Source of the DNA: a virus
Reading direction: 5' to 3' (one strand)
Virus record (IMG/VR): IMGVR_UViG_3300045611_000098
Location: 1-32,847 of that record
DNA length: 32,847 nucleotides
The translations under genes and the position numbers were made by a program. Below, piece after piece: positions 16,964-25,431 of this stretch (position 1 is its first letter; the number at the start of each line of letters is the position of its first letter). The notes beneath the pieces were generated by a model. That model was not told the DNA's origin, made no database searches, and saw only the letters and a program-made list of their open reading frames with translations.

Positions 16964-17540
16964 CCAAGGGTCTGACCGGGCTCGGCACGGCCTGATTGGG
17001 TCGGGCCTGGTTGGTCGGGTGAGGCGGGGCCTGGTTCGGCAGGTGAGGCGAGGTGAGTCTTGGCGCGGCGAGGCACGGTATGGTCGGGTTCGGCAGGCGC
17101 GGCTTGGCTTGGCACGGCGTGGCTGGGTGCGGCATGGTAAGGCGCGGTGAGGCAAGGCATGGCAGGTGTGGCAGGCCCGGCGGGGCGGGGCAGGGCGGGG
17201 CGGGGCCTGGCATGGTAAGGCATGGCAGGTAAGGCACGGCGTGGTCTGGCGCGGCTTTGCCAAGCCTGGCGGGACGTGGTTCGGCGTGGTTAGGCAGGCG
17301 GGGCGGGGCCGGGTGCGGCGCGGCGCGGCGTGGCCTGGCGGGGCGGGGCTCGGCAGGTGAGGCTTGGCGTGGCTAGGCGCGGCTGGGTGCGGCATGGTAA
17401 GGCGCGGTGAGGCAAGGCATGGCAGGTGTGGCACGGCACGGCAGGGCAAGGCTGGGTGCGGCCCGGTACGGCAGGTGTGGTACGGCAAAGCAAGGTTCGG
17501 TTTAGTTAGGTGGGGTACGGCGTGGCAGGCAAGGCGCGGT
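16964..17540 (+). repeat. Pentanucleotide GGYNN tract
   Basis: About 577 bases in which GG recurs every five bases, the third base is nearly always C or T, and the last two vary (for example GGCAC GGCGT GGCTG GGTGC GGCAT GGTAA). The register is shifted repeatedly by four-base GGCA units. One interruption, GGCTTTGCCAAGCC (17253-17266), is a small inverted repeat. The strand is extremely G-skewed. Open frames on either strand here are artefacts of composition. The tract starts at the stop codon of the preceding gene and ends about 30 bases before the next. Confidence 0.9.
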
Positions 17541-20493: not shown

Positions 20494-20702
20494 CTACCGC
20501 TGCGACGACCGACCGCCATCCCGCAGACCGGGCCGCGTTACAGGTCGGGGCTTGGAAGACGCCGGAGGTGCTGCTGACGGCCTGCGCCCTAGTGCGCCTC
20601 GGCCTGGCCGAGTCCTTCCTGACCCGGCACGGGGTCGCGGCGCAACCAGCGCAAGGGGAATTATTTGGTGTTGACAAACCTAGCGATCCTGTTCTAGTGT
20701 GA
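20490..20702 (+). CDS. Unknown small protein
   Basis: Protein of 70 aa overlapping the previous gene by ATGA, with GGAGGGACG upstream. One amphipathic or hydrophobic helix (EVLLTACALVRLGLAESFL), then a C-terminal LFGVDKPSDPVLV. The sequence of promoter P2 overlaps its last 30 bases. Function unknown. Confidence 0.5.
   Translation: MTTAATTDRHPADRAALQVGAWKTPEVLLTACALVRLGLAESFLTRHGVAAQPAQGELFGVDKPSDPVLV
20671..20700 (+). promoter_or_regulatory. Candidate promoter P2
   Basis: TTGACA (20671-20676), 18-base spacer, TAGTGT (20695-20700), with AATTATTT just upstream. It would start transcription near 20707, just ahead of the pseudoknot-forming leader of the replication initiator gene. Confidence 0.5.
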
Positions 20703-20706
20703 CCGC

Positions 20707-20870
20707 GTGAATGGGAAATGTGCCCCAAGCGAAAGGCAGTTTGATGGACCGCAAAGAGCCATTTCGTTCTAGTCCGCTTGTCAGTGCCGTTCGTGTGGAA
20801 TCATGCCGACAGGCAAGAAACTGCGCCACGGGGCACACACTGACAAGCGGGTTAGAGCGAAAGGATCACC
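20707..20870 (+). ncRNA. Candidate pseudoknotted 5' leader RNA 2
   Basis: Helix b: 20762-20786 pairs with 20838-20862, 25 continuous base pairs including three G-U pairs. Helix a: TGTGCCCC (20719-20726) with GGGGCACA (20830-20837). Helix a2: GCAGTTT (20736-20742) with AAACTGC (20818-20824). Hairpin c: TGCC-gaca-GGCA (20804-20815). Order a-a2-b-c-c'-a2'-a'-b' is a pseudoknot. Strand b' ends in GCGAAA and runs straight into GGA, the ribosome binding site of the gene at 20871. Probably a cis-acting translational control element. The G-U pairs argue for RNA-level structure. Confidence 0.6.
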
Positions 20871-21692
20871 ATGAGTAAGCGATTCTTCGACACCGAGATA
20901 TTCGGACGCGCTTGGTTTAGAGGACTCTCACCGCCACTCAAATGTTTCTGGCTCTATCTCCTGTGCCGCTGCGACATGGCGGGGGTCATTCACGATTTCG
21001 ATTGGAACCTAGCATGGTATCACATCGGCGGCGGCAAACACCCAAGCCCAGCAGATTGCCTACTTGCCATGAATGGGAATGTGATTCAACTTCCGGATGG
21101 CAAACTGTTTGTGCCTAAGTTCATCACCTTTCAGTACGGTCATCTCTCAGACATATCGAAGGTGCATATTGCCGTTAGGGGAATCTTGAATAGGCTATCC
21201 ATACCCTATCCATATCCTATTGATAGGATACAAGACAAAGACAAGGATAAGGATAAGGACCAAGGGGGGAGTGTGAGGGGGGGCGCGACCGGCCCCCAGG
21301 ATGACGAGTCCGCTTGGCTCGCCACGCTCAAGGCCGAGTACGCCAAGGTCGGCGTGGACGTTGACCGTGCCCTAGTCGATGCGCGGGCTTGGCTGACCAG
21401 TCCGAAGGGCCGGGGTCGCAAGTTCACGCGACAGTTCTTCGTGAACTGGCTCAAGCGGTGTGACCGGAACGTGACGGCCACGGCCCCGGTGGATCAGGAC
21501 AAGCTCCGCGCTCGGTACATCAGGGAGTGCGTGGATGCGCTCTGGACATACAAGGATGATGACGAGCAGTTTCCACGGACACTATCGGCCCTAAACGACA
21601 AGTACCGTGACATCCCGAAGGACAAGAACGGTGAAACGGTCGTGGACAACGCGCTGGAGATCATCAAGCTCCGGCGCAAGGGATTGCGGTAA
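20871..21692 (+). CDS. Putative replication initiator / replisome organiser
   Basis: Protein of 273 aa. The N-terminal domain (FFDTEIFGRAWFRGLSPPLK, then LLCRCDMAGVIHDFDW and FITFQYGHLS) matches the winged-helix start of lambda O/DnaD-like phage replication proteins. A repetitive Lys-Asp linker (DKDKDKDKD) separates it from a helical C-terminal domain with Trp/Phe. Such proteins bind the origin and load the host helicase. Expression is probably controlled by the leader just upstream. The two repeat families at 15212-15387 are candidate binding sites. Confidence 0.65.
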   Translation: MSKRFFDTEIFGRAWFRGLSPPLKCFWLYLLCRCDMAGVIHDFDWNLAWYHIGGGKHPSPADCLLAMNGNVIQLPDGKLFVPKFITFQYGHLSDISKVHIAVRGILNRLSIPYPYPIDRIQDKDKDKDKDQGGSVRGGATGPQDDESAWLATLKAEYAKVGVDVDRALVDARAWLTSPKGRGRKFTRQFFVNWLKRCDRNVTATAPVDQDKLRARYIRECVDALWTYKDDDEQFPRTLSALNDKYRDIPKDKNGETVVDNALEIIKLRRKGLR

Positions 21693-21693
21693 C

Positions 21694-21765
21694 ATGATCG
21701 AGGCGGCCATCGAGCGGGAGGAGGCCAAGGCCAGGACGGTCGGGAGGGGCCATGACGCGGATTGA
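21694..21765 (+). CDS. Possible 23-residue peptide
   Basis: ATG 21694, one base after the initiator stop, opens 23 codons (MIEAAIEREEAKARTVGRGH then DAD) overlapping the methyltransferase start by 14 bases. It may be a translational coupling peptide or chance; no separate ribosome binding site beyond AAGGGA. Confidence 0.2.
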   Translation: MIEAAIEREEAKARTVGRGHDAD

Positions 21766-23197
21766 ACAGGGGGACGCGGCGACCGTGCTCAGGACGCTGC
21801 CGGAGGCGAGCGTGAACTGCATTGTGACCTCTCCGCCCTACTGGGGCCTGCGGGACTACGGCGTACAAGGCCAGATCGGGCTTGAGCGGGTGCCAGAGGA
21901 ATACGTCGCCAATCTCGTTGCCGTATTCCGAGAGATCAAGCGGGTACTTCGTGATGACGGAACATGCTGGATCAATCTGGGACCGACTTACACAGCCTGC
22001 GTTTTGCGTGATAACTCTGCCAACCGGTCTCCCCTGCTGTGGCGTGCTCTCTCATGTGGCACCGATGGCAAAGCACGTCAAGATTTTCAAGGCGATGGTC
22101 GTGCTTGTCTCGGTTACGATGATGGATGCCAAGGCGCGAGTCTGTCCCGTCATGCTGACACCGTTCACAATGACCGATCCGTTTTACAAGGCGAGCCGCA
22201 GACTTCGCGGATAAGCCGTGATAGCGGGCATTCGGATTACGACCAAGCATCTCCTGACGCTTCGCTTCGCGGCGTTCAGGTGTCCACCATGCTGCAATCT
22301 TTCGACCGACCTCTGGACGCTTCCTGCCCTGAAGCCACGGCTTCGGCTTCCCGGCCTGAGCCGCAGACATTTTTGCCCGCGTCTCATCTGTGCGCTGATA
22401 CGTCGGGTGGCACTCCCGGCAACCCGTCGATGTCGCCCCCATTGGTCGTCCGCACTTCGGGCAAGGAATCTTTTTTCTCGGCATGTGGCTCTCCTGATTG
22501 TCACGGCATAGGCCGCTGTGGTTTATGTTGGTGTAGATTAGCCATTCCGTCCCTGAATGTCAAGGCCAAGGACCAGGTTTCTATTCCGCACCTTGTCGCG
22601 CTCGCACTTCAGGCGGACGGCTGGTATCTGAGACTGGACAACATCTGGCACAAGCTGAACGCGATGTGCGAGAGCGTGAAGGACAGGCCAACGCGGGTGC
22701 ATGAATATGTGTTCCTGATGAGCAAGTCGGAGCGGTACTTCTATGACCAAGAGGCCGTCCGGGAACCGCAAGCGGAGTCATCCAGGGCCCGGGCCCAGTA
22801 CGGTTGGCGCGGTCGGACCGACGACGGGAGTGGGGGCGCAAGGACTGGTTCGGGCTTTCGCCGATGCGCGACTGAAGGACTGACGACTGGCGAGGCTGGT
22901 TTCTTCCCAGCCGATGGCCTACGGAACATGCGGTCGGTCTGGACAGTGGCGGTCGCCCGGTCCAAGGACGGCCACTTTGCCACGTTCCCACCCGCTTTGG
23001 TGCGGCCCATGATCCTGGCGGGGTGTCCGGTGGGCGGGACGGTGCTGGATCCGTTCGCGGGGTCGGGCACGGTGGGCGAGGTGGCCGAGGAGGAGGGGCG
23101 GAACTCGGTCTTGATCGAACTGAGGCCGGAGTACGTGGACATGATCAAGGCCCGGACGCGGCAGGCCGGGCTGTTCTGCGGGGAGGAGCGAGGATGA
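21752..23197 (+). CDS. Beta-class DNA (N4-cytosine/N6-adenine) methyltransferase with a 187-residue insertion
   Basis: Protein of 481 aa. Catalytic motif IV SPPY (27-30) in TSPPYWGLRDYG precedes the SAM-binding DPFAGSGT near the C-terminus, the permuted beta-class order. The core is interrupted between LGPTYT (to 81) and NVKAKDQ (from 269). The intervening 187 residues read as composition-driven, non-domain-like protein and coincide with an antisense HNH gene. The frame stays open, so a full fusion could be made. After it, IPHLVALALQADGWYLRLDNIWHK and HEYVFLMSKSERYFYD are standard. It methylates phage or host DNA, probably against restriction. Confidence 0.8.
   Translation: MTRIEQGDAATVLRTLPEASVNCIVTSPPYWGLRDYGVQGQIGLERVPEEYVANLVAVFREIKRVLRDDGTCWINLGPTYTACVLRDNSANRSPLLWRALSCGTDGKARQDFQGDGRACLGYDDGCQGASLSRHADTVHNDRSVLQGEPQTSRISRDSGHSDYDQASPDASLRGVQVSTMLQSFDRPLDASCPEATASASRPEPQTFLPASHLCADTSGGTPGNPSMSPPLVVRTSGKESFFSACGSPDCHGIGRCGLCWCRLAIPSLNVKAKDQVSIPHLVALALQADGWYLRLDNIWHKLNAMCESVKDRPTRVHEYVFLMSKSERYFYDQEAVREPQAESSRARAQYGWRGRTDDGSGGARTGSGFRRCATEGLTTGEAGFFPADGLRNMRSVWTVAVARSKDGHFATFPPALVRPMILAGCPVGGTVLDPFAGSGTVGEVAEEEGRNSVLIELRPEYVDMIKARTRQAGLFCGEERG
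21972..22484 (-). CDS. HNH homing-type endonuclease, antisense inside the methyltransferase gene
   Basis: Protein of 170 aa, the only convincing minus-strand gene. A zinc knuckle (CPKCGRP...CRECH) comes first, then NUMOD3-like DNA-binding repeats (DETRAKMSAAQAGKPKP, RRPEVGRKIAAWW-type), then an HNH fold (CERCQHDGT, LGIHHRNRDKHDH, LENLDVLCHRCHMREH). On the minus strand, CAGGAGAG lies 5-12 bases before its ATG at 22484. Free-standing HNH enzymes spread by cutting alleles that lack them. It occupies most of the insertion in the methyltransferase gene. Confidence 0.85.
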   Translation of the reverse strand: MPRKKIPCPKCGRPMGATSTGCRECHPTYQRTDETRAKMSAAQAGKPKPWLQGRKRPEVGRKIAAWWTPERREAKRQEMLGRNPNARYHGLSAKSAARLVKRIGHCERCQHDGTDSRLGIHHRNRDKHDHRLENLDVLCHRCHMREHATAGETGWQSYHAKRRLCKSVPD

Positions 23198-24302: not shown

Positions 24303-24331
24303 TTGACATCATGCCATAATTCTGCGATGCT
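24303..24331 (+). promoter_or_regulatory. Candidate promoter P3
   Basis: TTGACA (24303-24308), 17-base spacer, GATGCT (24326-24331) with TGC in front (extended -10 form). Predicted start near 24338, exactly at the first base of pseudoknot helix a. It sits immediately right of the direct repeat. Confidence 0.55.
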
Positions 24332-24337
24332 GATAGC

Positions 24338-24438
24338 GCGATGAACGGAAACAGAAACAACTTGCCCGCGTCCTGGGAACCCATGCCGTCAGGCATCCGT
24401 TCATCGCAACCAGGCGCGGGCATTGTCTTGGAGACGCA
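24338..24438 (+). ncRNA. Candidate pseudoknotted 5' leader RNA 3
   Basis: Helix a: GCGATGAACGG (24338-24348) with CCGTTCATCGC (24397-24407), 11 perfect pairs. Helix b: TGCCCGCG-t-CCTGG (24363-24376) with CCAGGCGCGGGCA (24410-24422), 13 pairs and one bulge. Hairpin c: ATGCC-gtca-GGCAT (24383-24396), abutting a'. Order a-b-c-c'-a'-b' is a pseudoknot with an A-rich 14-base linker between a and b and a two-base linker between a' and b'. GGAG of the next gene follows within ten bases. Hairpin c shares TGCCG-x-CAGGCA with RNA 2. Confidence 0.6.
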
Positions 24439-25431
24439 ATGAAGATTCACCCTGTCACTCAATGCTGGCCTATCATGGGCGAAGATGACTATGCCGAACT
24501 CATCGAAGACATCCGCGCCAAGGGGTTGCTGCATCCGCTTGTGATGCAGGGCGACGTTCTGCTCGATGGGCGTAATAGGCTGAAGGCGTGCGAGGAATTG
24601 GGCATCAAGCCAGATATGGTGCAGTACGTTGGCGATGATCCTGCTGGCTACATCATCAGCACGAACCGGCGGCGCAATCTCACGCCTGGGCAGCGGGCGA
24701 TGGTGGCGGAGAAGTTGGCGGGGCTGAAGCATGGCGGGGACCGGAAGCACGAAGTTATCAAGGGCTCAAAAGAGCCCTTGATATTGAATCAGGAACAGGC
24801 CGCCGAGACGATGGGGGTGTCCGAGGCTTCTCTCAAAAGAGCCCGCGAGATCAGACATACTGCGCCTGACTTGGCGGCGAAGGTAGAGTCCGGCGAGATG
24901 ACGCTTTGGGCCGCGCACAAGGTGGCGAAGCCCCACGTCGCACAGAACTCCGGTGATAACGAGTGGTACACTCCGAAAGCCTATGCAGAGTCGGCGCGGG
25001 TGGTGATGGGGAAGATTGACATTGATCCAGCGAGCAGCGAAACGGCGAATAAGATCGTGAAGGCTGGTAAGATATTCACGCAAGACAATGACGGGTTGAA
25101 GCAGGACTGGAGCGGAAAGCTGTGGTTGAATCCACCATATTCAACGGGCCTGATTGACAAGTTCGCTGCCAAGACCGTGACGGAGTATGAGCAAGGGCAC
25201 ATAAGCGAGGCTCTGGTGCTTGTCAACAATGCTACGGAAACAAGGTGGTTCGCCCGGTTGTGTTCGGTGGCGACAGGCTTCTGCTTCCCAACAGGTCGTG
25301 TCAAGTTCTGGCATCCGCGCAAGAAGGCCGCGCCGCTCCAGGGGCAAGCAGTAGTGTACTTTGGAAAACACTGGCAGCGGTTCGCAAACGAGTTCAGGCA
25401 ATACGGCATTGTGGCGAAGATCGAAAAATGA
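24439..25431 (+). CDS. ParB-type nuclease/DNA-binding domain fused to DNA N6-adenine methyltransferase
   Basis: Protein of 330 aa. ParB/Srx domain at 1-70 (YAELIEDIRAKGLLHPLVM, LLDGRNRLKACEELG), then a helix-turn-helix region (LNQEQAAETMGVSEASLKRA, 117-136). From about 173 comes a phage Dam-type methyltransferase domain (DNEWYTPKAY, IDIDPASSETAN, LKQDWSGKLWLNPPYS with the NPPY catalytic motif, FPTGRVKFWHP). Known phage architecture; it methylates adenine, with the ParB part perhaps guiding site choice. A 12-bp perfect palindrome lies in its own coding sequence. GGAG precedes ATG 24439. Confidence 0.85.
   Translation: MKIHPVTQCWPIMGEDDYAELIEDIRAKGLLHPLVMQGDVLLDGRNRLKACEELGIKPDMVQYVGDDPAGYIISTNRRRNLTPGQRAMVAEKLAGLKHGGDRKHEVIKGSKEPLILNQEQAAETMGVSEASLKRAREIRHTAPDLAAKVESGEMTLWAAHKVAKPHVAQNSGDNEWYTPKAYAESARVVMGKIDIDPASSETANKIVKAGKIFTQDNDGLKQDWSGKLWLNPPYSTGLIDKFAAKTVTEYEQGHISEALVLVNNATETRWFARLCSVATGFCFPTGRVKFWHPRKKAAPLQGQAVVYFGKHWQRFANEFRQYGIVAKIEK
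24756..24783 (+). repeat. Perfect palindrome inside the ParB-methyltransferase gene
   Basis: TATCAAGGGCTC, AAAA loop, GAGCCCTTGATA. Its inner part CTCAAAAGAGCCC recurs at 24832-24844. No U tract follows, so termination is unlikely; a protein-binding site or mRNA hairpin is possible. Confidence 0.75.

Follow-up and report, generated by a model that had tools for sequence, protein, structure and literature searches.

Leader RNAs closest to the module

Gene 32 of phage T4 is subject to autogenous repression by its own protein, and its leader holds a pseudoknot controlling translation; neither a leader ORF nor a layout of antisense type is known to us there. In the IncI plasmid ColIb-P9, a leader peptide (repY) and a block of the Shine-Dalgarno site precede the replication initiator gene repZ. 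The pseudoknot of this leader is stated to be required for repZ translation, and an antisense RNA originating from the opposite strand to block this activating pseudoknot (PMC8383071). Two phage arrangements are outlined in statements of PMC4825925: the IsrK/orf45/anrP pairing of Gifsy-1, and P4, where replication genes are blocked by RNA-dependent termination (seqA/CI RNA). As for C4, the immunity RNA that acts on an antirepressor operon, passages of PMC5320573 describe a role in lysogeny and superinfection immunity in which b′ covers the RBS of the target and a′ sets the specificity, the RNA being cut out by RNase P, which cleaves at its 5′ end at a site with a GGW feature.

Here we compare with these systems the leader of a putative replication initiator gene. 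The window is the whole stretch of DNA analysed, 32,847 bases of the uncultured virus record IMGVR_UViG_3300045611_000098; labels such as L086 designate the loci of compared leaders. An earlier note on this DNA had described a structured leader with a long stem and crossing helices that looked like a control of the initiator. This part was supported, while three things had been overlooked: a 5′ hairpin carrying one of the paired segments in its loop, a leader ORF that traverses the stem and reaches into the start of the initiator, and the match of the whole layout to the phage P1 c4 locus. We estimate at about 0.6 the probability that we are dealing with a diverged antisense module of C4 type whose target lies in this very leader and which controls the initiator via the coupled leader ORF; that a C4-like layout controls this operon we regard as likely. 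The layout known from C4 on an antirepressor operon would here front a replication initiator, and the Rfam models are blind to it.

Architecture of the leader

The positions of all features are given in Table 1. The stem described earlier was found as claimed: B and B′ paired at 25 of 25 positions, with 22 Watson-Crick and 3 G-U pairs, and its last base adjoins the GGA of the initiator Shine-Dalgarno site. Among inverted repeats within 500 nt it ranks first across the window; the three others of at least 18 nt are only 73–83% complementary. Folding of the 220-nt leader gave z = −3.76, none of 200 shuffles being equally good, and unpaired probabilities of 0.12, 0.11 and 0.37 were predicted for the three GGA bases, so that the stem is able to bury this site. 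An exact search of viral contigs with the stem core returned no match.

The two helices said to cross the stem were both present. In helix A, TGTGCCCC pairs with GGGGCACA and in helix C, GCAGTTT pairs with AAACTGC. From 5′ to 3′ the module comprises a 4-bp hairpin with A in its loop, followed by C and B and, in close succession, by C′, A′ and B′. Pair probabilities of 0.77–0.89 were predicted for the stem of the 5′ hairpin, TGGG[AAATGTGC]CCCA, its loop being unpaired with at least 0.92. In the predicted fold the last six bases of A′ were unpaired (0.67–1.0) and the first two mostly paired.

Table 1. Features of the initiator leader and of a possible second site in the window
Feature	Position	Strand	Basis
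Possible promoter TTGACA-18-TAGTGT, about 12 nt 5′ of the hairpin	20671–20700	+	sequence only
5′ hairpin, 4-bp stem and 8-nt loop, a1-hairpin counterpart	20712–20727	+	pair probabilities, Rfam consensus
Segment A (a1-like), partner A′	20719–20726	+	descriptor scans; duplex −15.1 kcal/mol
Segment C (b1-like), just 5′ of leader ORF start, partner C′	20736–20742	+	pairing test, p = 0.012
Leader ORF of 44 codons, with a further in-frame ATG at 20711	20744–20878	+	ORF recurrence among elements
B, 5′ strand of stem (C4 closing-stem counterpart)	20762–20786	+	pairing, fold, inverted-repeat ranking
C′ (b′-like), 5 nt 5′ of A′	20818–20824	+	helix C test
A′ (a′-like), gap 0 to B′ on its 3′ side	20830–20837	+	descriptor scans
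B′, 3′ strand of stem, abuts Shine-Dalgarno GGA (20863–20865)	20838–20862	+	pairing and fold prediction
Putative replication initiator/helicase-loader homolog, 273 aa	20871–21692	+	homologs, PHROG names of relatives
Possible second, more divergent module copy before ParB-like/Dam gene at 24439	24338–24442	+	helix, stem, ORF

The gene behind the leader

The earlier note had called the downstream gene a replication initiator. We found 36 viral homologs of its product. The PHROGs that relatives match bear the names replication initiation protein or DnaD-like helicase loader, and a DnaB helicase lies downstream of the initiator relative in both L086 and L045. The name is thus backed by the annotation and neighbours of relatives, and by the homologs we take the gene as a putative initiator; for the window protein itself, Pfam, PHROGs and NCBIfam contained no matching family at E ≤ 0.01, the only others being two sub-threshold Pfam matches (E 0.043–0.057). 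A fold search of its model against the PDB gave nothing at E ≤ 0.001, nor did its profile match any PDB sequence.

As a separate observation, a Q-D-K-D-K-D-K linker (21229–21261 in the window) was near-invariant among initiators otherwise little alike, an invariance inflated by the use of this pattern as search seed. Its conservation may concern DNA repeats (origin iterons) rather than protein.

Recurrence in other phage leaders

The leader set consisted of 203 loci, giving 199 usable leaders in 105 clusters. Leaders of distant initiator homologs have no sequence similarity, yet some repeat one pairing plan: a long hairpin ends just 5′ of the gene, and the bases immediately 5′ of its 3′ strand can pair with a segment close to the 5′ end. 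This A-B-A′-B′ plan scored at least 44 in 9 of the 105 initiator-leader clusters versus 14 of 1117 other gene starts on the same contigs, several of the latter being module copies preceding other genes. Most initiator-homolog clusters are devoid of the module, 96 of 105 scoring below 44. With a strict descriptor placing A in the loop of a small hairpin, scores of at least 52 were reached by seven of the 105 clusters versus 0.15 per shuffled set; sequence-unrelated copies therefore exist upstream of homologous initiators, where the earlier note had suggested looking for the leader. In other phages, the copies stand before initiators or before the first gene of replication operons.

A full descriptor comprising A, C, B and the leader ORF was then applied to both strands of 1,497,205 bases, from a non-random sample of contigs with loci cut at 14 kb. 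Scores of at least 70 were obtained for 10 distinct matches versus none in shuffled sequence. At 50 or above there were 21 distinct matches versus 9 in shuffled sequence, hence weak matches cannot be taken as evidence. The scan newly revealed L030 and L240, the latter copy preceding a small ORF upstream of an initiator of unrelated type. The unrelated initiator type supplied 48 leader clusters, and at 56 or above these yielded only two cases, both already known. No convincing element was seen in Pan5 (L129) or in six loci of named phages having the other initiator type (L230–L235), where the scores were of a kind that GC-rich background also gives. L214 looks by eye like a further copy and is outside all counts. 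A literature search found no account of this module before a replication gene, which does not prove that none exists.

Pairing in helix C was assessed over 14 elements (L169, with no ATG entered between its A and B, was omitted). It was significant overall (Fisher p = 5e-8) and singly below 0.05 for 7 of the 14, and the gap between C′ and A′ was 1–7 nt in 13 of them.

A U run follows B′ in most relatives and is missing in the window, L177 and L173, where control would thus be translational. Such terminator-like tails in relatives, together with the long near-perfect duplex, could also mark the 25-bp stem as mainly a site of RNase III or other processing, or as the plain terminator of an upstream operon. 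We hold this to be very improbable: A, C, the 5′ hairpin and the leader ORF would be left unexplained, and the window and the two other leaders are without a U run.

Leader ORF and candidate promoter

The leader ORF of the window crosses the stem and overlaps the initiator start. An ATG between A and B, with a frame open through the stem to the next gene start, was present in 14 of 15 elements, six of which had been chosen from a list already displaying a leader ORF, versus 2.62 expected. Among the nine elements chosen by structure alone it was found in eight, L004 being the exception. Module order and leader ORF thus recur in sequence-unrelated phage leaders. Ten leader peptides compared with PHROGs gave nothing below E 0.19, and against Pfam the sole match was a sub-threshold one, of the window leader ORF to DUF5541 (E 0.0071); one leader peptide searched in named phages had no match.

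In 5 of the 15 elements TTGACA lay in the 75 nt preceding A (about 0.26 expected). A promoter consensus scan passed nothing on either strand, and the forward candidate listed in Table 1 was missed too because its second hexamer matches at 3 of 6 positions.

Covariation and strand bias

Four leaders (L218, L040, L030 and L217) are mutually alignable. In their alignment 90.5% of 168 cells were paired, versus 40–50% with the partner slid by 1–3 columns. Both sides had changed in 9 of 42 pairs, two in A, two in C and five in B, and none of 500 shuffles reached any of five covariation measures. All three helices are thus maintained by compensatory change in this homologous subset, as the earlier note had expected of leader homologs; the covariation covers these four relatives, the window leader having no close one.

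The B stems of seven clusters contained 17 G-T versus 2 A-C combinations under a detection that scores the two alike. This excess favours selection on RNA of this strand, in line with what had been deduced earlier from the three G-U pairs of the window, which by themselves prove little. We conclude that what follows the leader is probably controlled at the RNA level. A feature acting as DNA, be it a palindrome of a replication origin or a repressor site, would suit a position adjoining the initiator gene but is scarcely credible, given the 17:2 ratio and the covariation of three crossing helices in relatives; the shuffle controls argue against it as they do against chance.

Comparison with phage P1 c4 and other systems

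In the P1 c4 leader (NC_005856), a1 (TTGACAG, 48255–48261) pairs with a′ (48393–48399) and b1 (48268–48275) with b′ (48380–48387), while the C4 stem is formed by 48342–48359 and 48400–48417. In the window A is equivalent to a1, C to b1, A′ to a′, C′ to b′ and B/B′ to the C4 stem. At both loci a′ or A′ adjoins the stem with no gap, and b′ or C′ lies 5 nt before it. The a1 hairpin of Rfam c4-a1b1 (RF03163), CGGG[UUUGGCAG]CCCG, has a 4-bp stem and an 8-nt loop holding a1, as does the window hairpin. Similarly to a′ of C4, A′ is a segment predicted to be largely single-stranded directly 5′ of the 3′ strand of the stem, and C′, like b′, is located upstream of it and is complementary to the start of the target. 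The closing stem of about 17 bp and RNA length of about 77 nt in C4 (RF01695) have counterparts of 25 bp and 101 nt in the window; the stem-enclosed RNA measures 60–86 nt in 11 relatives and 76 nt in P1. Inside C4 there are also two hairpins, P2 and P3, the loop of the latter holding b′, and in c4-a1b1 the a1 hairpin is immediately preceded by another one. In the window, a fold was predicted for the inner region between B and B′, as was a hairpin 5′ of the a1-like hairpin, overlapping the putative promoter.

The comparison also points to a leader ORF through the P1 c4 region itself. It comprises 66 codons (48267–48467; locus L319, 468–668), with its ATG (48267) at b1, and ends 2 bases before icd, which starts at 48470; it is unannotated in the examined record, and icd and ant1 overlap. 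P1 obtained a descriptor score of 73, only after relaxing the A-B spacing and the stop distance: this spacing is 80 nt in P1 versus 23–42 nt in the elements described here. The control targets differ as well, replication genes here and icd-ant in P1, and so does the U run after the stem of most relatives, unlike the C4 of P1 and P7.

Both Rfam models matched the P1 control (68.8 bits for C4), and neither matched the window (E ≤ 5) or 20 element-bearing loci (gathering threshold); Rfam scans of the window and relatives at gathering and permissive thresholds returned nothing relevant. No second target resembling P1 a2/b2 was found in the window besides its own A and C, by the same search that recovers a2/b2 in P1, and the RNase P-site GGW is absent from the 5′ foot of the window stem, where TTTCG begins the stem and is preceded by GCCA. 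With the Rfam match, a2/b2 and the RNase P GG missing, we name the module C4-like and not a member of the Rfam family. It is C4-like in layout and likely so in its working.

That a second target and an Rfam match are lacking would also suit a leader attenuator acting in cis only, kinetic or translation-sensing, for which no trans RNA would be needed and the likeness to C4 would be one of layout merely. Such an attenuator would comprise the leader ORF, the pseudoknot and a terminator or Shine-Dalgarno block, and the U runs directly after B′ in most relatives and the overlap of the leader ORF with the gene start could be read in this way. We consider it unlikely, while taking it seriously. The match to P1 is a detailed one, from the 4-bp/8-nt a1 hairpin and the zero a′-stem gap to the position of b′ 5 nt upstream and the leader ORF, and A, B and C vary by lineage with pairing kept, as for immunity specificities.

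Other systems resemble the module in part. ColIb-P9 has a pseudoknot in the leader before a replication initiator, where this pseudoknot activates and an antisense RNA blocks it, unlike what we propose for the module here, and its leader fails to satisfy our descriptor. An attenuator of the ColIb/pT181 type was our first reading and was replaced after the comparison with P1. In Gifsy-1, a prophage leader RNA (IsrK) pairs with a small ORF in its 3′ part, and the stop of this ORF and the start of the following gene overlap in AUGA, comparable to the leader ORF described here; IsrK differs in that a terminator precedes the ORF and that it activates in trans. For P4, the minus strand (alpha operon) contained no descriptor match and the other strand one weak match, with a score of 58. 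The parallel with T4 gene 32 that had been drawn earlier, a phage-leader pseudoknot controlling translation, found no support.

A model of control by the C4-like module

A transcript would start near 20707. Ribosomes that enter the leader ORF while A′ and C′ are still to be transcribed would traverse B–B′ and hand over to the initiator. Without early entry, A:A′ and C:C′ would form and shut the leader start, and the initiator Shine-Dalgarno site would be hidden by the 25-bp stem; in relatives with a U run, the B:B′ stem would also terminate transcription. With a self-pairing RNA switch directly before the initiator, replication can probably be held off at the RNA level.

A trans-acting step is a possibility that we advance with reserve. 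As in P1, the B to B′ part might be released from other transcripts, such as prophage ones, and act in trans by pairing with A and C. The RNA of a resident prophage would in this manner keep the replication gene of an incoming phage switched off, which would amount to immunity at replication. If the module works as in P1, a short RNA would gate initiation of phage replication with a specificity that shifts with few paired bases, linking prophage immunity to plasmid-style incompatibility.

More speculative still is the idea of a large unrecognised class of C4-type modules, a portable switch before replication operons of several phage lineages conferring immunity at DNA replication, with P1 c4 as a specialised offshoot. 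Sequence models would be blind to such a class because A, B and C diversify freely. If it exists, the immunity it confers would be RNA-based and akin to incompatibility.

Sporadic distribution of the module

One and the same element stands in front of an HNH gene in L040 and of an unrelated initiator in L218. L045/L131 and L132/L133 have upstream DNA in common, while elements and initiator N-termini differ; L023 and L036 are divergent upstream and near-identical from the start of the 5′ hairpin onward. L139, the closest initiator relative of L086 (82% identical initiator), is without the module. These mixed neighbours and the patchy presence indicate that the module is a sporadic cassette.

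They also bear on the ligand- or protein-sensing leader proposed in the earlier note, for instance autogenous repression by the initiator as with T4 gene 32. A structured leader with a buried Shine-Dalgarno site would be expected of such a switch, which we nevertheless find improbable and did not retain: there is no conserved binding core, unrelated sequences having the pairing plan alone in common, and an element found before such differing genes as in L218 and L040 is not tied to one protein.

Upstream of the element, L045 and L131 carry an inverted repeat with paired changes (AGCCC..GGGCT versus AGCCT..AGGCT), possibly an operator or a hairpin.

Other sites in the window

A possible second copy precedes the ParB-like/Dam gene (Table 1). 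It would consist of a 12-bp helix (24338–24349/24396–24407) that includes the leader ATG, a 13-bp stem (24363–24376/24410–24422) and a 33-codon leader ORF (24341–24442) overlapping the start of the gene, and the region 24303–24442 also contains TTGACA. Its fold was unexceptional (z = −0.98), hence we regard this copy as tentative.

Two further stretches of the window drew our attention. Degenerate GGC-rich tandem repeats, strongly strand-asymmetric, extend over 17003–17487, with no clear gene. The DNA methyltransferase ORF at 21752–23197 contains, in antisense orientation on the minus strand, another ORF (21972–22484) with a NUMOD3 motif, as in homing endonucleases; the methyltransferase ORF is open throughout this region.
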